A DNA stretch of 43,674 bases from Bifidobacterium breve (lineage in GTDB: Bacteria; Acidobacteriota; Vicinamibacteria; Vicinamibacterales; CAVVIG01). This document shows, piece by piece, positions 13,932-33,568 of the stretch. Positions within the stretch are counted from its first letter, which is position 1; each line of letters begins with the position of its first letter. Under the pieces are notes generated by a model. The model saw only the letters and a list, made by a program, of their open reading frames with translations. It was not told where the DNA came from and made no database searches. The stretch lies in NCBI GenBank assembly GCA_943328785.2, contig CALQBJ020000004.1:1-43674 (forward strand). The letters are read 5' to 3'. Made by a program: the position numbers and the translations under genes.

Positions 13932-14239
13932 GACACCTCCACGCCAACGGGCGGCACGATGTGCGTGACGCGGAGCGCGGCAGCGTTGTCCACCACCACC
14001 ACTTCCCCGGTCGCCAGCGTCACGCCGTGCACGCGGATGCTGAGGTCGCCGCCCGCTGGCTCGACGAGCTTCACGACGTACTGGGGCTGGAGTGTCAGAC
14101 ACTCGCGCAGCGTGAGGACGCCGGTGCCGATGATGACATCCACCTGACAGCGGATGTCCTGCAGCGGCGTCGTCAGGTCGGGCGCCTCGAGCACCTGCGC
14201 CGGCTCAGTACTGGATGACGAAGTCGGAGAAGAGGACAT
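13928..14239 (-). CDS. fliN: Flagellar motor switch protein FliN (short form)
   Basis: A 103-residue SpoA-domain protein with a Ser/Thr-rich N-terminus, then DIRCQVDVIIGTGVLTLREC, LVEPAGGDLSIRVHGVTLAT and GEVVVVDNAAALRVTHIVPP, the compact FliN fold that forms the base of the C-ring. Its start lies 35 nt inside the end of fliL, so the true start could be a little downstream, although no other ATG is available. It is one of two FliN-like genes in the window; this copy is in the canonical fliL-fliN-fliO position. Confidence 0.87.
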   Translation of the reverse strand: MSSSPTSSSSTEPAQVLEAPDLTTPLQDIRCQVDVIIGTGVLTLRECLTLQPQYVVKLVEPAGGDLSIRVHGVTLATGEVVVVDNAAALRVTHIVPPVGVEVS

Positions 14240-14690
14240 CGACCACCTCGATCTCTTTCAGGGCTGCCGAGACTTTTTCCTTGAGCGCCGCGCGGAGTTC
14301 GGCCTTGCCTTCCACCGACCCGAGATGTCCGGAGGTCTGCTCCGTGAGCGCATTCACGATGGCGGAGCGGGCGCCCATCATCAGCACCGGCTTCTCCTCG
14401 AACTCCTTGGCCTCCACTTCGTCCTCGACCACGAGCTGGATCGAGGCGCGCAGGAAGCGCTGGTTCCCCTCGTCCGCCAGGTTGACGACGAACGGCTCCA
14501 TCTTCACGAGCCCGTGTTCGCTCAACTTCTTCTCCACCACAACGGCTGGACCCTTGTTGCGCAGGAAGAACCAGGCACCGCCGCCGGCGGCACCGGCCGC
14601 CAGCACCGCGATGGCCACGATCATCATCACAGGCGATTTCTTCTTCCCGGTAGCTCCGGCTGCGGCTGGCGTTGGGTCGCTCATGGACAT
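14205..14690 (-). CDS. fliL: Flagellar basal body-associated protein FliL
   Basis: FliL is an inner-membrane protein that supports stator function at the basal body. The 161-residue protein (ATG at 14690, with an equally possible ATG at 14684) has a short Lys-rich cytosolic start, one membrane helix at about 22-44 (MMIVAIAVLAAGAAGGGAWF), and a periplasmic domain with HGLVKMEPFVVNLADEGNQR, FLRASIQLVVEDEVEAKEFE and a C-terminal VVDVLFSDFVIQY. It is the first gene after the sigma-54 promoter at 14732-14747. Confidence 0.93.
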   Translation of the reverse strand: MSMSDPTPAAAGATGKKKSPVMMIVAIAVLAAGAAGGGAWFFLRNKGPAVVVEKKLSEHGLVKMEPFVVNLADEGNQRFLRASIQLVVEDEVEAKEFEEKPVLMMGARSAIVNALTEQTSGHLGSVEGKAELRAALKEKVSAALKEIEVVDVLFSDFVIQY

Positions 14691-14731
14691 TCTGTAAAAA
14701 GTGGCGCCATCAGTGGCGACACCCATGCGGG

Positions 14732-14747
14732 AGCAAGCCGGGTGCCC
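14732..14747 (-). promoter_or_regulatory. Sigma-54 (-24/-12) promoter for the fliL operon
   Basis: On the minus strand the sequence reads GGGCACCCGGCTTGCT, with GG and GC separated by exactly 10 nt and matching the sigma-54 consensus TGGCACG-N4-TTGCW except at the outer bases. Predicted start of transcription is near 14721, about 30 nt before fliL. The -24 and -12 hexamers are nearly the same as those of the flgB promoter at 25206-25221. Confidence 0.75.
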
Positions 14748-14885: not shown

Positions 14886-15392
14886 CTACGTCGTCGGCAG
14901 CCATTGCCAGCGGGCGTCGGGGTCGCCCACCGAGAAGATGACGTCGACCGAGCCGAAGCCGTCGCCGAAGTCGATCGTGTCGTCGCCGGTGACCTTCGCG
15001 GTGCCCCCCTTCGCGTTGAGGTGGTCGACGACCGCCTGCAGGTTGCCGCTGGTCGGTGGCAGCGAGAGGTCCTGCACGGCGCGTCCGAAGGTGTACTTGG
15101 TGGTGACGTGCGACGGGTCGTTCAACTTGCCGAGGTCGAAGCCCGGAATCGGGTCGTAGTTGGTGCGGGGGGTGACCGCGGCGGCGTTCGCCGACACCGG
15201 CCTCATCAGCGGCGCCGTGTTGGCGGTGCCGGTCGACCCCATCTTCTGCTGGAGCCCGCCGAGCAGTGACGTCAGGAACGTGCCGAACTCGTCCTTCGAG
15301 AGCTGGCCGTCCTTGTTCGCGTCGACGCGGTCCATGAGGCCGGTGATCAGCTGGCCGACATCCGGCGTGCTTCCGATGCTGTTGATAGACAT
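14886..15392 (-). CDS. EF-hand calcium-binding-like protein of the flagellar operon
   Basis: A 168-residue protein with one canonical EF-hand loop at residues 24-35 (DANKDGQLSKDE, with acidic or polar ligands at positions 1, 3, 5, 9 and 12). A low-complexity Thr/Ala/Asn linker follows, and then a C-terminal domain of about 80 residues containing KYTFGRAVQDL, AVVDHLNAKGGTAKVTGDD and TIDFGDGFGSVDVIF. No signal peptide is seen. It is tucked between fliK (9-nt gap) and the fliL promoter, so it is co-transcribed with hook genes. Calcium binding is inferred from the loop. The function is unknown; an export-system substrate or a hook-stage regulator are possibilities. Confidence 0.8.
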   Translation of the reverse strand: MSINSIGSTPDVGQLITGLMDRVDANKDGQLSKDEFGTFLTSLLGGLQQKMGSTGTANTAPLMRPVSANAAAVTPRTNYDPIPGFDLGKLNDPSHVTTKYTFGRAVQDLSLPPTSGNLQAVVDHLNAKGGTAKVTGDDTIDFGDGFGSVDVIFSVGDPDARWQWLPTT

Positions 15393-15401
15393 GCGTTCCT
15401 C

Positions 15402-17210
15402 TCAGAAGACGAGTTCGAAGGTTCCCTGATCGGCCGTTCGGCGCTGACGCCGTGGCGCCTGCTGCTCGCGCTCGTCGCGCGGGCCGGCGGCCTCGTCATC
15501 GGTGGACGTCGGCGCGTCCTCCTCCACGATGACCAGCCGGTCGAGCTGCAGCCCCTGGTCCGCCAGCGCTTGACGCAGCATCGATTCGTTGGTGCGCATC
15601 CACTCCCGGACCTCGGCGCTGGCGGCCTGCAGCGATGCGGTGACCGAGCTGCCGTCGATCTGCACCCCGACGGTCACGCCACCGAGGAAGCCGGGGTTCA
15701 ACCGGATGCGCGCTTCCCCGCTGCCCTGATCGCACTGGACCCGGATGGCGTGAATGAGCTGCGTCGGCAGCTCCGCGTCGAGCAGCGGTGTCGACGCCAC
15801 CCCGGCACTCATGACCGCGGCGTTCACCGCCGCAGGCGTCGTCGTGGCGCCGATGGTCGCCGCGGCGTGGAAGGCGGCAATGGCCTGCGCCGCTCGCGCC
15901 GTGGGACGCGCCACCGGCGCCGGCACGTCGTCGTGCGTCGCCTTGCGGCTGGGCAGAGCCTGGACGTTCTCCTCCGCCGGCCCCCCCTGCGTCACTGCCG
16001 AGTTCGGCATCCGTATCTGCGGCTGTGCCGAGGCCTGTCTGGCTGACCGCGGTGTCCGGATGGACGCCGCGTCGGTCGAGACCTGCTCAGGGGTGACCGC
16101 GGCGCCGAGCGCCGGGCGCTCCGGCTCTGACGTCTGTGGTGCGTCCGGCGAGAGCGCCGCGATCGGCACATCGCTGGGCGGTGCCTGGACGGCGGCATCG
16201 TTGAGCACCGGTGTCGCCATGCGGCCAGGTGCGGCCGGGACCGGGACCTGGCCCGACTGCTGGACCGACTGCTGGACCGACTGCTGGACCGACTGCGGCT
16301 CCGACTGCGTCAGCGTCGACGGTGTCGACACGGGACGGTTCCCGTCCACCGACTGCGCCAGCGCCTCGCGCACGGCGGCCATGGCCACCTCGCGCGGACC
16401 GGACGGTGGCGTGGGACCAACTGCCTGAACCGGTCGTGCGGCCCGGTTCGAGGCCTCGGCCGACACAGCGTCGCCCAGATCGGGCGAGCCCGACGGGTTG
16501 GTGGTCCGGACAGCGCGCAGCGCCGCGAGCACCTCGGGGCTGGCCGCTTCGGGCGGCATCCCTTCGGGCAGGTGGAACTCGACCAGCGGCGGCGCGGGTG
16601 CCGTCGCGGACGGTGCGACCGCCTCGGTGGGGGCGAGCCGAGGCGCATCCGCCGGCGGCGCCGCGAACGGCGTTCCGGCGGCGGCAGCCACCGGCGGGGG
16701 CCAGTGCTGTGACAGGACCGGCATGGCGGCCATCGGTGTGCCGCCACCTCCGGTCACAGTCACGGCCACTGTCAGGTCGGTGCCGGTGCCGGTGCCACTT
16801 GTCGCAACCGGCAGGGGCAGCGGGACGTCGAACACCGTGGGCATCTGCGGCACGACAAGGTCAGTGCGGCTGGCGTCTTCCGCCGCCGGCACCGCGACGA
16901 CGGGCGGGGCGACGTCGGCGGGGCGTGGCTGCGACTTCACGCCAGGCATGGCAATGCCGACAGCCGGCGCATCGGCCACAGGCATCTGTGCTTGCGGTGG
17001 CGCGGTGGTGGCCTGACGGGCCGCTGGCCGCGCATTGCGCTGGGTAGGTGCGGCGGCCGGCTCGGCCTCGTCGGCGTACTGGTCGACGAGTTCGCCGAAC
17101 GGATCCGCCGCTGACGCCTGGCGCTCACGCCTGGCGGCGGGTGGAGTCGAGGATGTGCTCTGGTAGCGCGTGGCCGCCGCCGGAGCGGCGCCCACATCAG
17201 CGGGAAGCAT
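15402..17210 (-). CDS. fliK: Flagellar hook-length control protein FliK
   Basis: FliK measures the hook and triggers the export specificity switch through FlhB. The 602-residue protein is mostly Pro/Ala/Gln-rich and low in complexity (about residues 1-470), as expected of the ruler part. The C-terminal substrate-switch domain is recognisable as GEARIRLNPGFLGGVTVGVQ, VTASLQAASAEVREWMRTNE and LRQALADQGLQLDRLVIVEE. A Gln-Ser-Val repeat (QSVQQSVQQSVQQSGQ) is encoded by 12-nt tandem DNA repeats. It follows flgE by 15 nt. Low sequence conservation outside the last 90 residues is normal for the family. Confidence 0.9.
   Translation of the reverse strand: MLPADVGAAPAAATRYQSTSSTPPAARRERQASAADPFGELVDQYADEAEPAAAPTQRNARPAARQATTAPPQAQMPVADAPAVGIAMPGVKSQPRPADVAPPVVAVPAAEDASRTDLVVPQMPTVFDVPLPLPVATSGTGTGTDLTVAVTVTGGGGTPMAAMPVLSQHWPPPVAAAAGTPFAAPPADAPRLAPTEAVAPSATAPAPPLVEFHLPEGMPPEAASPEVLAALRAVRTTNPSGSPDLGDAVSAEASNRAARPVQAVGPTPPSGPREVAMAAVREALAQSVDGNRPVSTPSTLTQSEPQSVQQSVQQSVQQSGQVPVPAAPGRMATPVLNDAAVQAPPSDVPIAALSPDAPQTSEPERPALGAAVTPEQVSTDAASIRTPRSARQASAQPQIRMPNSAVTQGGPAEENVQALPSRKATHDDVPAPVARPTARAAQAIAAFHAAATIGATTTPAAVNAAVMSAGVASTPLLDAELPTQLIHAIRVQCDQGSGEARIRLNPGFLGGVTVGVQIDGSSVTASLQAASAEVREWMRTNESMLRQALADQGLQLDRLVIVEEDAPTSTDDEAAGPRDEREQQAPRRQRRTADQGTFELVF
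16255..16302. repeat. 12-nt tandem repeat inside fliK
   Basis: Three exact copies of GACTGCTGGACC followed by one diverged copy, in frame within fliK. They encode the repeated Gln-Ser-Val-Gln segment of the ruler region. An in-frame repeat whose unit is a multiple of three could change copy number without breaking the gene and would alter ruler length by four residues per unit. Confidence 0.9.
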
Positions 17211-25205: not shown

Positions 25206-25221
25206 AGCAAGGCTGGTGCCT
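25206..25221 (-). promoter_or_regulatory. Sigma-54 (-24/-12) promoter for the flgB operon
   Basis: On the minus strand the sequence reads AGGCACCAGCCTTGCT, with GG and GC spaced by exactly 10 nt. Predicted transcription start is near 25195, just before flgB. It shares GGCACC-N4-TTGCT with the fliL promoter. A sigma-54-dependent activator is encoded less than 1 kb away. Confidence 0.8.
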
Positions 25222-25271: not shown

Positions 25272-25293
25272 CCCTGTCGGCTAGCCGACAGGG
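25272..25293 (-). terminator. Intrinsic terminator after the receiver gene
   Basis: A 22-bp perfect palindrome (10-bp arms CCCTGTCGGC and GCCGACAGGG around a TA centre) starts 18 nt after the receiver-gene stop. On the minus strand it is followed by GTTTTCGTATTT, a moderately T-rich tail. It would separate receiver-gene transcription from the flgB promoter. Confidence 0.75.
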
Positions 25294-25310: not shown

Positions 25311-25856
25311 CTATTTGTCGCGCTTGAGCGCGCGTTCGATCCGGAGCAGGCTCTCCTCGATCGCGCTCAACCGGGTATCGAGTAGCGCCGCAGGGCTCTC
25401 GTTACGTTCGGGGAAATCGGCATTGCCTGGCCCGGGCTTTAATCGCCTGCTCGATTCCTGCAGTTTGATGCGGTCCTGTATGCGGTCGAGAATGAGTTCG
25501 AGCTGGCTGAGGGAGAAGGGCTTGGTGAGGTAATCGTAGGCGCCGACCCGGACCGCGCGAATGGCGGAGTCCAGTGAGGCGTAGCCCGTCACGATCACGA
25601 CGTAGCAGGCGGAATTCGCCTGGCGCGCCGCCTGCAGTACAGCAAAGCCATCCGCCCCTGGCAGGCTCAGGTCGGTCACGACGAGGCCATAGCTTCCGTT
25701 CGAACGCTGGAGCGCAGAGATGGCCGCCCGACCGTCTTGCGCACTAGTGACCGTGAAGCCGCGTGCCTGGAAGAACTCCAGCAGGAGTTCCCGTGCGGCT
25801 GGCTCGTCGTCGACGACCAAGACTTCAAACGCGTTTGCGAGGTGATCCGTCATCAT
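25311..25856 (-). CDS. Stand-alone response regulator receiver protein
   Basis: A 181-residue protein with one receiver domain: acidic pair D16-D17 in VLVVDDEP, phospho-acceptor D62 in VVTDLSLPG, signalling Thr in IVTGYAS, and Lys in LTKPFSL. After residue 125 there is only a Pro/Gly linker and a short C-terminal helix (LSAIEESLLRIERALKR), so no DNA-binding output is visible. ATG-ATG at 25853-25856 gives two possible starts. It is divergent from the FlrC-like activator, whose receiver ends with a very similar TKPFSLS motif. It may be a partner of the nearby kinase or a protein-interaction regulator. Confidence 0.88.
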   Translation of the reverse strand: MMTDHLANAFEVLVVDDEPAARELLLEFFQARGFTVTSAQDGRAAISALQRSNGSYGLVVTDLSLPGADGFAVLQAARQANSACYVVIVTGYASLDSAIRAVRVGAYDYLTKPFSLSQLELILDRIQDRIKLQESSRRLKPGPGNADFPERNESPAALLDTRLSAIEESLLRIERALKRDK

Positions 25857-26033
25857 GTTGCCCGCTACTGCATCGCAAGTCCGCAGGTTCCCGCGTCCAA
25901 CCGCTTCTGTGCTGCGCAGTCGGCCAACATGATCAATACTACCAATCGTCAAATCGTGAAATCTCTTGAGCGCGAGGGCGGGTGGAATTCCCCGCAGACG
26001 CGTGCGGATCACCCGACGATCCTCGGTCAAGTT

Positions 26034-27433
<1,400 letters not shown>

Positions 27434-27437
<4 letters not shown>

Positions 27438-28419: not shown

Positions 28420-28959
28420 TTGAAGAGACTTGCCGCACTGGTCGTTCTGCTCCTGACGAGCGGAATTGCCCTCGCCGCCGCCGACCGCATCTTCACGAAC
28501 CCGAAACCTGAGGGACACTTCAAGAAGCTCTTCCCGAACGCCGTGGCCTTCTCGAATGTCGGCGGGAACCCGCTGCACTGGACCGCCTACGGCGCCGACC
28601 CGGCGAAGACGCCGAACGCGCCGGTCCTCGGCTACATTTTCTGGACCACCGATATGGTGCCGCAGGAGCATGGCTACCACGGCGCCATCCATATCCTCGT
28701 GGGGCTGAACACCAACGGCACCATCAGCAACGTGGTCGTCGACTACAACTCCGAGCCCTACGGCTACTTCTCGGTCGATCCGCCCGAGTTTGCCGAGCAG
28801 TTCAAGGGCAAGAGCATCTTCGACAAGTTCCAGGTCGGCGCCGACGTCGACTACGTCTCGCGCGCCTCGCTCAGCGTCGGCAGCGCCAGCCGCGCCATCC
28901 GCGATTCGACCCGCATCGTCGCCCGCGCTCTGCTCGACCCGAACGCGGTGAAGCGTTGA
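28420..28959 (+). CDS. Exported FMN-binding-domain protein (RnfG/NosR-N-like)
   Basis: A 179-residue protein, TTG start, with an N-terminal signal sequence (KRLAALVVLLLTSGIALAAA). The rest is one FMN_bind domain: PVLGYIFWTTDMVPQEHGYH, GAIHILVGLNTNGTISNVVV and KSIFDKFQVGADVDYVSRAS. FMN_bind domains of RnfG and NosR carry FMN covalently on a Thr in an SGAT-type motif. The equivalent here reads S-R-A-S at 147-150, with Ser at the acceptor position, so flavinylation is uncertain. The next gene starts at the overlapping TTGA, and an ApbE flavin transferase is encoded nearby. Likely role: periplasmic flavin electron carrier. Confidence 0.8.
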   Translation: MKRLAALVVLLLTSGIALAAADRIFTNPKPEGHFKKLFPNAVAFSNVGGNPLHWTAYGADPAKTPNAPVLGYIFWTTDMVPQEHGYHGAIHILVGLNTNGTISNVVVDYNSEPYGYFSVDPPEFAEQFKGKSIFDKFQVGADVDYVSRASLSVGSASRAIRDSTRIVARALLDPNAVKR

Positions 28960-30086
28960 ACCGCGCGGCCACCACGCTGCTCCCCATCGCCCTGCTGGTG
29001 CTGCTGAGTGGACCGGCCGTTGCTCGCGCGCAGGAACCGCAGGCGGCACCTCCGGCGAACGCCGCTGCCGCACCGGCCACTCCCGACACACCGGCAGCGG
29101 TATCGGGAGCCGCTGGCGTCCCGGCGCAGCCCGCTGGCGGCGCCGACCCGTGGGCCGCGCTCGGGCTTCCCCCAGCCGGAGCTGCCGGAGCGGGCCAGGC
29201 GGCTGGAAGCGACGACGCCTGGGGCTTCGACACTGAGGCGAAGGTGGAGACCTGGGCCGACATCCTGCGCCCCCAGGCGACCGACCTGGCGCTGATGTCG
29301 CTCTTCTTTGTCTTCGCGCTGGTCAGCTTCTTCCGCAAGAGCCAGCCGCTGAAGTACGCCACGCTCGCGATGTCGGTGGCCTACCTCGGCATCACCAAGA
29401 GCACGCTGATCTCGGTGACCGACATCTTCCGCTTCGTGCACTGGGATTTCCCCGAGTTCAAGTACAGCATCGCCTGGTATCTCATCGGCACCTTCACCGT
29501 GGTGACGACGCTGCTGTGGGGACGGCTGTATTGCGGCCGCATCTGCGCGTTCGGCGCGCTCACGCAACTGCTCGACGCGGTGGTGCCCAAGAAGATCCGC
29601 TGGGAACCGTCGGCAAAGGTCGAGCGCTACGCCGGCTACGTGAAGTATGTGCTGCTGGTGGCGGTCGTCGGCTACTACGCGGTGACCGACCACTTCACGA
29701 TCTACCGCTACGTCGAGCCGTTCTGGATGTACACGCGCCAGGGTTCCGTCCTGCTATGGACGATGCTCGGCACGCTGCTGGTGGCGAGCGTGGTGGTGCG
29801 GAACCTCTACTGCCGCTTCCTCTGTCCGGTCGGCGCGATGCTCGGCCTCATCTCGCAGGTCACCACGCTGTTCCGCATCAAGCGCTGGTCGGAGTGCAAG
29901 ACCTGCAAGATCTGCGAGCGCACGTGCGAGTGGGGCGCCATTCGCGGGCCGCAGATCGTCCGCTCCGAGTGCGTGCGTTGCGACGACTGCGAACGGCTCT
30001 ACGAGGACGAGCAGAAGTGCGTGCACTGGATCGTCGTGCACCGCAAGGCGAAGAACCTGCGGGTCGGCGAGAAAGTCGGAGCGTAA
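28956..30086 (+). CDS. Membrane polyferredoxin, NosR/NapH-like
   Basis: A 376-residue protein, TTG start overlapping the previous stop. An N-terminal signal or anchor and a long Ala/Pro linker (to about 85) precede about five membrane helices. Two YCGRICAFG and YCRFLCPVG motifs of the NapH/NosR type sit at helix ends. The C-terminal cytosolic part has a CxxCxxCxxxC cluster (CKTCKICERTC) and a second, incomplete-looking cluster CVRCDDC followed by Cys eight residues later. Together with the FMN protein this looks like a NosR split into two chains, moving electrons across the inner membrane. The physiological donor and acceptor are unknown. Confidence 0.85.
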   Translation: MNRAATTLLPIALLVLLSGPAVARAQEPQAAPPANAAAAPATPDTPAAVSGAAGVPAQPAGGADPWAALGLPPAGAAGAGQAAGSDDAWGFDTEAKVETWADILRPQATDLALMSLFFVFALVSFFRKSQPLKYATLAMSVAYLGITKSTLISVTDIFRFVHWDFPEFKYSIAWYLIGTFTVVTTLLWGRLYCGRICAFGALTQLLDAVVPKKIRWEPSAKVERYAGYVKYVLLVAVVGYYAVTDHFTIYRYVEPFWMYTRQGSVLLWTMLGTLLVASVVVRNLYCRFLCPVGAMLGLISQVTTLFRIKRWSECKTCKICERTCEWGAIRGPQIVRSECVRCDDCERLYEDEQKCVHWIVVHRKAKNLRVGEKVGA

Positions 30087-30092
30087 GCTCCG
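30077..30092. terminator. Short hairpin at the convergent gene ends
   Basis: CGGAGC-GTAA-GCTCCG, a perfect 6-bp stem with a 4-nt loop, spans the stop of the polyferredoxin gene and the 6-nt gap to the apbE stop. It lacks T-tails, so bidirectional termination is only possible. Confidence 0.35.
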
Positions 30093-31172
30093 CTACGTTC
30101 CCGGCGTCGGCTCGTGGACGATTTCCAGCTTCCCCTGCAGGCCGCTCGACACGTGCACCTGGTTGTCGGCGCCGACGATCACCCCTTCCACGTCCGGTAA
30201 CTGTTCGATCAGCGCCATCCCCTTCTCGGGTCCGAGCAGGAACACGCCGGTGCTCAGGCCGTCGGCGAGAAGCGCCCGCTTCGAGAGGATGGTGACGCTG
30301 CGGCTCAGGCGAGCCGGCTGCCCGGTCGACGGGTCGATGATGTGGTGGTAGCGCACACCGTCCTTGAGGAAGAAGCGCTCGTAGTCGCCCGACGTGCTGA
30401 AGGTGCTGTCCTCGAGTTCGACGCGGGCGAATACCGCTCCGTCCGGCGCGCGCGGGTCGGCAATACCGAGCCGCCATGACCGGTCGCCGTGCTTCCCCGC
30501 CACGTACAGATCGCCGCCCGCCTGAATGGAAAAGTTCTTCAGCCCGGCCTCGCGCAGCAGCGACACCGCATGGTCCACCGCCAGCCCCTTGCCGATGCCG
30601 CCGAGGTGCACCCGCATCCCCTTCCGCGCCAGGTACGCCGTGCCGGCCTGCTCATCGAATTGCAGCTTGCGGTAGTCGATGAGGCCGATGCGCGCGGCAA
30701 TCGCCGCCGCCGACGGAATGGAGTCGTCCTGATCCTGATCGAACTTCCAGACATCGGACAGTGCGCCGAAGGTGACGTCGAACTTCCCCCCCGTCCACTC
30801 ACTTGCCTGCCGTGCAGCAGTGAGTGCCTCCGTCGTCTCGCGGCTGACCGGCACCGGATGCTGCCCTGCCGCTTCATTCAGGCGAACGATGTCGCTCCCC
30901 GGCTTCCAGACACTCATCAGCGCATCGAGCCGGTTGAACTCGGCAAAGACCGCGTCGAACGCGCGGTTGGCCGGGTCGTCGGCGGACGTCCAGGCCATCA
31001 GCGTGAGCGACGAGCCCATGGCGAGCCCGCTGCGCGCCACCATGTGCGCCTCGCTGGCCGGCGCACGGGTCTCGACCGGTGCCGGCGCGTCGTTCCGGCA
31101 GGCCGCCGTGGTGACGAGCAGCCACGCGCCGCCGACGAGCGCGGCGCGCCAGGCATGGGGCTGTCGATTCAT
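30093..31172 (-). CDS. apbE: FAD:protein FMN transferase ApbE (lipoprotein)
   Basis: ApbE attaches FMN covalently to Thr/Ser of FMN_bind domains in the periplasm. The 359-residue protein begins with a lipoprotein signal (LLVTTAAC, lipidated Cys near residue 26). Family motifs are MGSSLTLMAW, FAEFNRLDALMSVWKPGSDI, GGKFDVTFGALSDVWKF, VHLGGIGKGLAVDHAVSLL, FSIQAGGDLYVAGK, ESTFSTSGDYERFF-like (EDSTFSTSGDYERFF) and HHIIDPSTGQPA. The start overlaps the stop of the upstream gene (ATGA). It is convergent with the FMN-binding/polyferredoxin genes, the likely substrates. Confidence 0.93.
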   Translation of the reverse strand: MNRQPHAWRAALVGGAWLLVTTAACRNDAPAPVETRAPASEAHMVARSGLAMGSSLTLMAWTSADDPANRAFDAVFAEFNRLDALMSVWKPGSDIVRLNEAAGQHPVPVSRETTEALTAARQASEWTGGKFDVTFGALSDVWKFDQDQDDSIPSAAAIAARIGLIDYRKLQFDEQAGTAYLARKGMRVHLGGIGKGLAVDHAVSLLREAGLKNFSIQAGGDLYVAGKHGDRSWRLGIADPRAPDGAVFARVELEDSTFSTSGDYERFFLKDGVRYHHIIDPSTGQPARLSRSVTILSKRALLADGLSTGVFLLGPEKGMALIEQLPDVEGVIVGADNQVHVSSGLQGKLEIVHEPTPGT

Positions 31173-33568
31173 TCGCGTACTCCGGACATCGCGGCCTTCA
31201 GGTCGTCCACGGTTCCCTCGGTCGCAACAAAGATATCGTCTGGGTAGGTGCGGTAGTCGAGCATCTCGCGATAGATCTCGTCGCCGCTGTGTTCGTTCAG
31301 ACCGAGACCCGCCAGGTATTGCAACCGGAGGTCGCGGTCGCGGTTCACCTGCGCGTCGGCCAGCCATCCCTTCAGGTCGCGCGCCCGGCCGGCATAGTTG
31401 CCGAACAGGTCGGCGGCGCCGTAGATGCCCGCCTGGATGAGCGAGCTGTCGACCGCCGCGAACGACGGATGCCGCAGCATCCCCTCGATTTCGTCCACCC
31501 AGATCGCCGGCTTCTGCGCCTGCCCCACCAGCACCGTGTCGATGGCGTGCCCCTCGAACACGTTACCGAACACCAGCGCTTCAGGGAACGCCTCGAAGAA
31601 GGTCGCCACTTCGGACTTCACGGCCGCCGGGCTGCTCTCGAACAACTGCACGTAGAGCGTCATCACGCCGCCCGGATTCAGGTGCTGGCGGGCGACGTCG
31701 AAGAACTCCTTCGTGTAGAGCGTGGCGGCGCCCTTCACCCACGGGTCGAGCGGGTCCGACGTGATGGCGTCGAACGTCTCAGTGGTCGTCAGCAGGTAGT
31801 GACGCGCATCGTCGGCAATGACGCGTACTTTCGGGTTCTTCAGCACGTCGTGGTTCACCGAGCCGAGGTAGGCGCGGGCCACCTGCGGCACCAGCGGCTC
31901 GATGTCGACGATGGTGACCTGTTCGACGGCGGGGTTCACGCTCACGGCACCGGCGGTGACGCCAGCGCCGCAGCCGATGACCAGCACCTTGCGCGGCTTC
32001 TCGGGAATCAGCGTCGTGAGGTGCCCCAGCATGCGCTGCAGCCGCATGTCGGCGGGCTGACTCGACGCCTGCACCTTGCCGGCGTTGTGGTAGTTGAGCA
32101 CGCCGTCCTCGGTCCGCGAGATTGCGATCGAGGCATGCATCCCTTCGCCAACATAGATGATTTCGTTCGCGTGGCTCACCCAGTTGGCGGCATGGCGGCC
32201 GTAGGCGATCAGCACCGCAGGCAACGGCGCCACCGCGAACGCCAGCAGCAGCGTCGCCCCGACCGCCGAGACGCGAACCACACGCAGGCGCCAGCTGCCG
32301 GCAGCGTTCCAGAGCATCAGGGCGCCGCCCGACGACCCGACCAGCGTCATCACCTGCTGCGCATGCTGGGAACCGAACCAGGGCACCAGCACCAGGCTGG
32401 TGAAGAGTGCTCCGGCGATGGCCCCGATCGTATTCGCCGCGTAGAGCCGCCCGACCACCTCGCCCTGGTCCGCGGTGTCGTCGCTCGAGGCCGCGAGGGC
32501 CAGCGAGAAGCTCGCGCCCCAGAAGAGCGGCGCCGGCAGAATCGCGAAGACAGCGCGCAGGAAGTCGACCCTGAACACCGCCCAGATGCTGACCGCCCCC
32601 GCATCACTCGGAGGCCAGTACGGCAGGACGTTGGAGAGGGCGTGCGCCGACCACACCATGCCGACCACCGACGCGAGCTGTGCCCAGCCGAGCCAGAGCG
32701 CAGGACGGGTGAGCCGGCGTGCCCATGATGCTGCGGCGGTGCTGCCGATGCCGAGCCCGATGAGGAACACCGCGAGCACGATGGAGAACGTGTAGACCGT
32801 CGCGCCGAACAGCAGCGCCAGGAAGCGCGTCCAGACCACCTCCGCCGCCAGCGCACAGAACCCGGAGCCGGCCACGACCAGGTAGAGGCGCCGCCGTGCC
32901 GCCACCGCTTCCGTCGAGTTGTTCGTCCGCGCAGCGGCCACGGACTGGCAACGTTCTGGCACCGGCGCGGCGCGCCGGCTCGCCAGCCAGGCAAGCGCCG
33001 CCACCACCAGGTTGATCGCCACCGCCACATACGTGGCGATGGCCATGTCGAACACCCGCAGCAGATAGAACCCGGCCAGTAAACAGCCGAAGACCGCGCC
33101 GGCCAGATTACCGGCGTAGAAGAACCCGAGCCTGGCCTTGCCGTCGGCCGTGCCGCCCACCCAGCGCGCCATCACCGGCAGGGTGGCGCCCATCGCGAAG
33201 GTCGGTGGCACGAGGCAGACGCCGGCCACCAGCGCGCGCATCAGCACGCCGCCGGCGCCAAGCCCGCCGACGCTGATGTAGACGCGCGTCACGAGCGGCA
33301 TCGCCCACAGCAGGAGCAGGCCCATCGCGCCGATCGCGGCCTCGAGTGCGGCGTAGACCGCCAGCGGATGACGGCCTCGCGGCACCAGCCGCGGCGCATA
33401 CAGGCTGCCGAGGCACAGGCCCCCCATGTAGGTCCCGAGCAACACGCCCAGTGACACTGTGGACGAGCCGATCACCAGTTGGAGGAGTTGCTGCCAGACC
33501 ACCTCGTAGATGAGGGCGGCAGTACCGCTGCCGACGAACAGCAGGACGAGCGCGAGCGATGAGGTCAT
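31169..33568 (-). CDS. Membrane protein fused to a spermidine-synthase-like domain
   Basis: A 799-residue protein (ATG at 33568). The first two thirds (about 1-470) are hydrophobic with roughly 12-14 membrane helices and start with the polyamine-synthase-associated membrane motif GSGTAALIYEVVWQQLLQLV. The last 330 residues contain a class I SAM-binding fold: KVLVIGCGAGVTAGA, VTIVDIEPLVPQVARAYLG, VIADDARHYLLTTTETFDAI and SDPLDPWVKGAATLYTKEFF. This is the fused transporter-like/spermidine-synthase family. Such proteins are common in Acidobacteriota and related phyla, with no settled substrate. It is translationally coupled to apbE, so it may share a role with the flavin module. Confidence 0.85.
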   Translation of the reverse strand: MTSSLALVLLFVGSGTAALIYEVVWQQLLQLVIGSSTVSLGVLLGTYMGGLCLGSLYAPRLVPRGRHPLAVYAALEAAIGAMGLLLLWAMPLVTRVYISVGGLGAGGVLMRALVAGVCLVPPTFAMGATLPVMARWVGGTADGKARLGFFYAGNLAGAVFGCLLAGFYLLRVFDMAIATYVAVAINLVVAALAWLASRRAAPVPERCQSVAAARTNNSTEAVAARRRLYLVVAGSGFCALAAEVVWTRFLALLFGATVYTFSIVLAVFLIGLGIGSTAAASWARRLTRPALWLGWAQLASVVGMVWSAHALSNVLPYWPPSDAGAVSIWAVFRVDFLRAVFAILPAPLFWGASFSLALAASSDDTADQGEVVGRLYAANTIGAIAGALFTSLVLVPWFGSQHAQQVMTLVGSSGGALMLWNAAGSWRLRVVRVSAVGATLLLAFAVAPLPAVLIAYGRHAANWVSHANEIIYVGEGMHASIAISRTEDGVLNYHNAGKVQASSQPADMRLQRMLGHLTTLIPEKPRKVLVIGCGAGVTAGAVSVNPAVEQVTIVDIEPLVPQVARAYLGSVNHDVLKNPKVRVIADDARHYLLTTTETFDAITSDPLDPWVKGAATLYTKEFFDVARQHLNPGGVMTLYVQLFESSPAAVKSEVATFFEAFPEALVFGNVFEGHAIDTVLVGQAQKPAIWVDEIEGMLRHPSFAAVDSSLIQAGIYGAADLFGNYAGRARDLKGWLADAQVNRDRDLRLQYLAGLGLNEHSGDEIYREMLDYRTYPDDIFVATEGTVDDLKAAMSGVRE

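Follow-up and report, generated by a model that had tools for sequence, protein, structure and literature searches.

A small EF-hand protein family linked to the flagellar regulon of Vicinamibacteria, with sequence marks of possible export

The window, by which we mean the whole stretch of 43,674 nucleotides analysed here, carries on its minus strand a flagellar gene cluster in the order fliG-H-I-J-flgD-flgE-fliK-EF-fliL-N-O-P-Q-R-flhB-flhA, where EF stands for a gene whose product of 168 residues contains an EF-hand loop. A previous inspection of the DNA letters (hereafter the sequence-only reading) had placed such a gene between fliK and fliL, and we found the open reading frame at exactly this place and the gene order as described. 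The gene, its two neighbours and the parts of its product are the following.

15402..17210, minus strand: fliK, the upstream neighbour, with a Flg_hook domain (Pfam)
14886..15392, minus strand: gene for the EF-hand protein attributed to the flagellar regulon, 168 amino acids (open reading frame, coding signal, family distribution)
15351..15392, minus strand: N-terminal 14 residues, MSINSIGSTPDVGQ, a proposed export signal (AF2 pLDDT, composition)
15288..15323, minus strand: EF-hand loop DANKDGQLSKDE, residues 24-35, inside a helix-loop-helix of residues 10-48 (Pfam, AF2, structure comparison, alignment)
15168..15239, minus strand: disordered low-complexity linker, residues 52-75 (AF2)
14895..15143, minus strand: C-terminal alpha-alpha-beta4 domain, residues about 84-166, of unrecognised family and fold (AF2, family and structure searches)
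14205..14696, minus strand: fliL, the downstream neighbour beyond a gap of 189 bases (Pfam)

The reading frame (15392..14886) has a strong coding signal, with GC contents of 0.59/0.47/0.95 at the three codon positions, and begins 9 nt past the fliK stop codon with an ATG that is preceded by GAGG; it is a real gene. A candidate second copy in the same genome, a weak match on contig C280, was rejected because it falls inside groEL.

Pfam recognised nothing in the 168-residue protein besides the EF-hand, which was matched by both EF-hand_5 (E 2e-5) and EF-hand_1 (E 4e-5) with bit scores slightly under the curated cut-offs (24.3 versus 25.9 and 23.2 versus 25.4, respectively). Scores of this kind are common for a lone EF-hand. 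The loop DANKDGQLSKDE is complete, as the sequence-only reading had it, with oxygen ligands at positions 1, 3 and 5 and a glutamate at position 12. The full set of calcium ligands is present in all 27 aligned relatives, each of which has D at position 1, N, D or S at position 3, D or N at position 5 and E at position 12, while the mean column identity of these members is only 35%. Hence, the motif is not a chance occurrence, and the retention of its ligands at such a low overall identity argues for selection on calcium binding. In the AF2 model, helices 10-23 and 33-48 form the EF-hand helix-loop-helix, and EF-hand chains are found among the structural matches of the model (Z up to 3.7 over about 45 residues). 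The protein very probably binds calcium, although a single EF-hand may do so weakly.

The C-terminal domain, modelled alone, folds with a pLDDT of 87.6 into two helices and four strands. The two segments that had earlier been pointed out as conserved-looking, KYTFGRAVQDL and DFGDGFGSVDVIF, indeed fall within this conserved domain. Searches of Pfam, NCBIfam, PHROGs, PDB sequences and PDB and viral structures returned nothing convincing for its family or fold; the structural matches, with KA1-like and pilin-like entries among them, reached at best Z 4.4 and lie in the range of chance. Outside the EF-hand family, the domain was found in two further proteins. One of them (L134; G053:C166:3354-3626) is a multi-pass membrane protein in which the domain is inserted between apparent transmembrane segments, and its host, a flagellate, yielded no EF-hand gene; the other (L133; G107:C766) has no recognised EF-hand, and neither FliL nor FlhA is present in its genome. 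The longest member of the EF-hand family (L029; G031:C62), with 434 residues, carries in addition a linker rich in Pro and Thr and another C-terminal domain, to which Pfam gave no match.

Relatives were first sought with the single protein in 60 related genomes, where they occurred in 14; FliL was present in 18 of the 60, all 14 included. A profile built from 12 members was then run on 193 genomes of the class and gave 35 matches for the family, as compared to 39 for FliL and 45 for FlhA. When genomes with FliL or FlhA are counted as flagellated (47 of the 193), the family is present in 32 flagellates and undetected in 15, and present in three and undetected in 143 of the 146 other genomes (Fisher p about 1e-21, a nominal value that ignores relatedness). 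The pattern is seen across six or more taxonomic families. Each carrier genome has one copy, which in G157 was read as two pieces, and one distant member (G089) was assigned to the family mainly by its context. Among the three matches in non-flagellates, we rejected that in G161 as spurious, since only a small portion of the frame, 333 residues long, is matched and the bin is 61% complete. The bins of the other two (G102 and G175) are 83% and 88% complete, and no rod or hook protein was found in them; when the incompleteness of the 34 credible carriers is added up, about two flagellar clusters are expected to be missing, a number that these exceptions roughly match. The 15 family-less flagellates yielded no credible match to a missed copy even at E 1. 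In one of them (G140:C71; L097), fliK and fliL are separated by about 4.5 kb of other DNA. A sample of 396 genomes of the phylum contained no member beyond the order, and the sole match in a scan of named genomes was an uncultured Acidobacteria bin (L112).

The family gene follows fliK in ten genomes that belong to three taxonomic families (G000, G001 and G022 of f1; G119, G126, G127, G129, G130 and G154 of f2; G110 of f10), and fliL comes next downstream wherever the contig continues. The homologues are thus physically linked to fliK in part of the class, and in the other genomes the gene has moved. In several families standalone copies adjoin cheA, cheX, cheB, cheW or motAB, and nine genomes (G029, G041, G051, G189, G190, G043, G104, G148 and G089) have che or mot genes next to the family gene or close by. 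The copies of G155 and G157 are located about 3.4 kb from flgB, beside a gene for a histidine kinase, an NtrC-type regulator or both, and apparent glycosyltransferase genes adjoin the family gene in G046, G102, G002 and G019. The neighbours were checked with Pfam in G041, G190, G104, G089, G148 and G155 and judged by eye in the other genomes.

The sequence-only reading had also proposed a new promoter ahead of fliL. A site of the sigma-54 type is present there as a consensus match; no sigma-70-like site was found before fliL. The regulatory features of the window are the following.

14732..14747, minus strand: sigma-54-type site GGGCACCCGGCTTGCT before fliL (consensus match only)
25206..25221, minus strand: sigma-54-type site AGGCACCAGCCTTGCT, 39 nt before flgB, the proposed promoter of the flgB...fliK-EF transcript (consensus match only)
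25276..25289, no strand assigned: inverted repeat GTCGGCTAGCCGAC, a proposed upstream activator site (form of the repeat)
25737..27437, plus strand: gene for an NtrC-type sigma-54 activator (Response_reg, Sigma54_activat, HTH_8), divergent from flgB (Pfam)

Sigma-54-type sites are not enriched across the window (three found versus 1.8 expected) and are telling by their position, not by their number. Of repeats like GTCGGCTAGCCGAC, the window has seven versus five expected by chance, weak evidence when taken alone; repeats of this form are also present upstream of several standalone family genes. The activator encoded at 25737..27437 is a likely regulator. Past the flagellar cluster (28420-31367), inspection by eye points to genes for an FMN-binding protein and for a 4Fe-4S membrane protein; an ApbE-like gene comes next, on the opposite strand.

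For the relatives, we scored a site when it resembled TGGCAY-N5-TTGCW with at least 9 of 11 consensus bases, kept the GG and GC, and lay within 150 bp. Such a site precedes 20 of the 22 standalone copies that have enough upstream DNA, where 0.48 are expected from dinucleotide shuffles, and only five of 183 neighbouring genes; none was present before the nine fliK-linked copies tested. The positions of the sites before flgB, fliL and the standalone copies make it probable that the flgB...fliK transcript ends with the EF-hand gene, that a new transcript begins downstream of it, and that those copies which left the operon have kept flagellar-type control. Downstream of the sigma-54-type site and ahead of the fliL start codon, the minus strand also carries a terminator-like hairpin with a T-run (14703-14723; GGTGTCGCCACTGATGGCGCC ACTTTTTACA), which by its position would fall right at the 5' end of the fliL transcript and may act as an attenuator or as the end of the upstream transcript.

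Taken together, the fliK linkage in ten genomes, the near-exclusive occurrence in flagellates and the sigma-54 sites of the unlinked copies speak against homologues that are scattered without any tie to flagella, and we regard it as highly likely that the family belongs to the flagellar regulon. A gene that merely rides in the operon as a passenger might well be undetected in about a third of the flagellates, as is the case here, but its standalone copies would not be expected to retain a sigma-54 site and to be nearly restricted to flagellates; we therefore consider this explanation highly improbable. The idea that the protein senses calcium for hook assembly is possible but gained no direct support. 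The family went undetected in 15 of 47 flagellates and hence cannot be a general hook-assembly factor, and many members lie away from fliK.

Where the product acts is suggested by its composition. When one member per genus was compared with flagellar proteins from the same set of loci, cysteine made up 0.10% of the family residues versus 0.775% in cytosolic flagellar proteins (p 2e-8), 0.70% in Che proteins, 1.08% in small neighbouring proteins and 0.011% in exported flagellar proteins; the family value is low, yet above that of the true export substrates (p 0.01), and 87% of the members are cysteine-free. Residues 1-8 of the window protein are disordered (AF2 pLDDT below 50), and the N-termini of the family are almost uncharged and rich in Ser, Thr and Asn, with 0.81 charged residues per protein at positions 2-14 as compared to 0.60 in exported and 2.95 in cytosolic proteins. 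N-terminal composition discriminates weakly, since the cytosolic FliN is also Ser-rich at its start, and a trained N-terminal classifier, itself weak in that it misjudged FlhG, gave the window protein a score of 0.49. The linkers of the family are of low complexity, and that of G031 is Pro/Thr-rich; Pro/Thr-rich linkers and inserts between membrane segments are usual in extracytoplasmic proteins. Cysteine depletion, N-termini and linkers are thus three marks that would point outside the cytoplasm. Because no signal peptide of the Sec or Tat type is visible by eye in the family sequences, the flagellar export channel appears to be the obvious route, and it is rather likely that the family protein is exported by the flagellar apparatus. 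The suggestion of the sequence-only reading that the protein travels through this channel thus gains from the cysteine depletion, the apparent lack of a signal peptide and the substrate-like N-termini, with export itself standing as a prediction.

Two other ways of explaining these data have to be weighed against export to the flagellum. The protein could be a cytosolic calcium sensor of motility that, when loaded with calcium, touches a component of chemotaxis, the motor or the export apparatus and so tunes swimming or assembly. This would suit the conserved loop, the apparent lack of a signal peptide and the standalone copies that adjoin genes for cytosolic chemotaxis proteins or motAB in several families; it fits poorly with a cysteine content far below that of Che proteins (0.70%) and cytosolic flagellar proteins (0.78%), with the uncharged, disordered N-terminus and long low-complexity linker, and with a C-terminal half so divergent that it does not resemble a conserved partner-binding sensor. 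We hold such a sensor to be somewhat unlikely. The export-like N-terminus and cysteine content, along with the variable C-terminal domain, would also suit an effector that is released via the flagellar export apparatus and acts on other organisms or surfaces and not on the flagellum, and the only echo in NCBIfam is XopAW, restricted to the EF-hand region (E 0.03). However, the gene is present in a single copy per genome, its linkage with fliK and flagellar genes recurs in three families, and no enzyme motif was recognised in its product, so that we judge a released effector of this kind to be distinctly unlikely.

We thus favor, with a probability of roughly 0.55, a model in which the protein is an accessory of the flagellar regulon that is exported and folds on calcium outside the cell. 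The gene would be transcribed together with the hook-basal-body genes from sigma-54 promoters, and the flexible N-terminus would hand the unfolded, signal-peptide-less product to the flagellar type III export apparatus. Calcium is millimolar outside the cell, and there the single EF-hand and the C-terminal alpha/beta domain would fold on it. The folded protein would then serve as an extracellular flagellar accessory, either associated with the hook or filament or released; the candidates for its task are adhesion, an accessory role at the hook or filament, and action as a released protein. Only tentatively do we extend this model to a calcium-gated flagellar export substrate, whose folding by extracellular calcium would make assembly, adhesion or export responsive to calcium. 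We did not find such a substrate described in the literature searched, which lies outside most subscription journals.

What is known of flagellar accessory genes comes largely from a few model bacteria, and the Vicinamibacteria are widespread soil bacteria. Comparison of their genomes adds to the flagellar regulon an EF-hand family that is specific to this lineage; a promoter signature accompanies the gene where it has moved, and its sequence bears marks of export. An exported protein of this kind would bring its own calcium site to the flagellar substrates, and one could then ask whether external calcium affects flagellar assembly or surface behaviour. In the same body of literature, largely without the subscription journals, we found no paper that describes an EF-hand protein encoded at a flagellar locus of bacteria, and the small calcium-loop protein family of flagellated Vicinamibacteria is apparently undescribed. 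EfhP of Pseudomonas aeruginosa (PMC4053335) and CaBP of Caulobacter (PMC13171946), both regulators with EF-hands, are set apart from it by their descriptions and not by sequence comparison; according to its abstract, CaBP is a periplasmic protein with a Sec signal peptide and three hands, and we found no link to a flagellar locus in the abstract of either paper.

With the rod and hook export substrates FlgD, FlgE, FliK and FliE, the family has in common the operon, the promoter class and the cysteine depletion, and by the look of its sequences it may also share the low-charge N-terminus and the lack of a signal peptide; it differs from them in having an EF-hand, in not being universal, in that no sequence kinship was found and in that its export is only predicted. 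The canonical 12-residue loop in a helix-loop-helix is shared with the Pfam EF-hands PF13202 and PF00036, from which the family is distinguished by its single hand, its sub-cut-off score and its C-terminal domain of unrecognised family. XopAW (NCBIfam NF041410) is an EF-hand type III effector family of Xanthomonas, and thus likewise an EF-hand protein that is sent through a type III system; the match covers the EF-hand only, with 14 bits versus a cut-off of 120, and XopAW uses the injectisome and not the flagellum.
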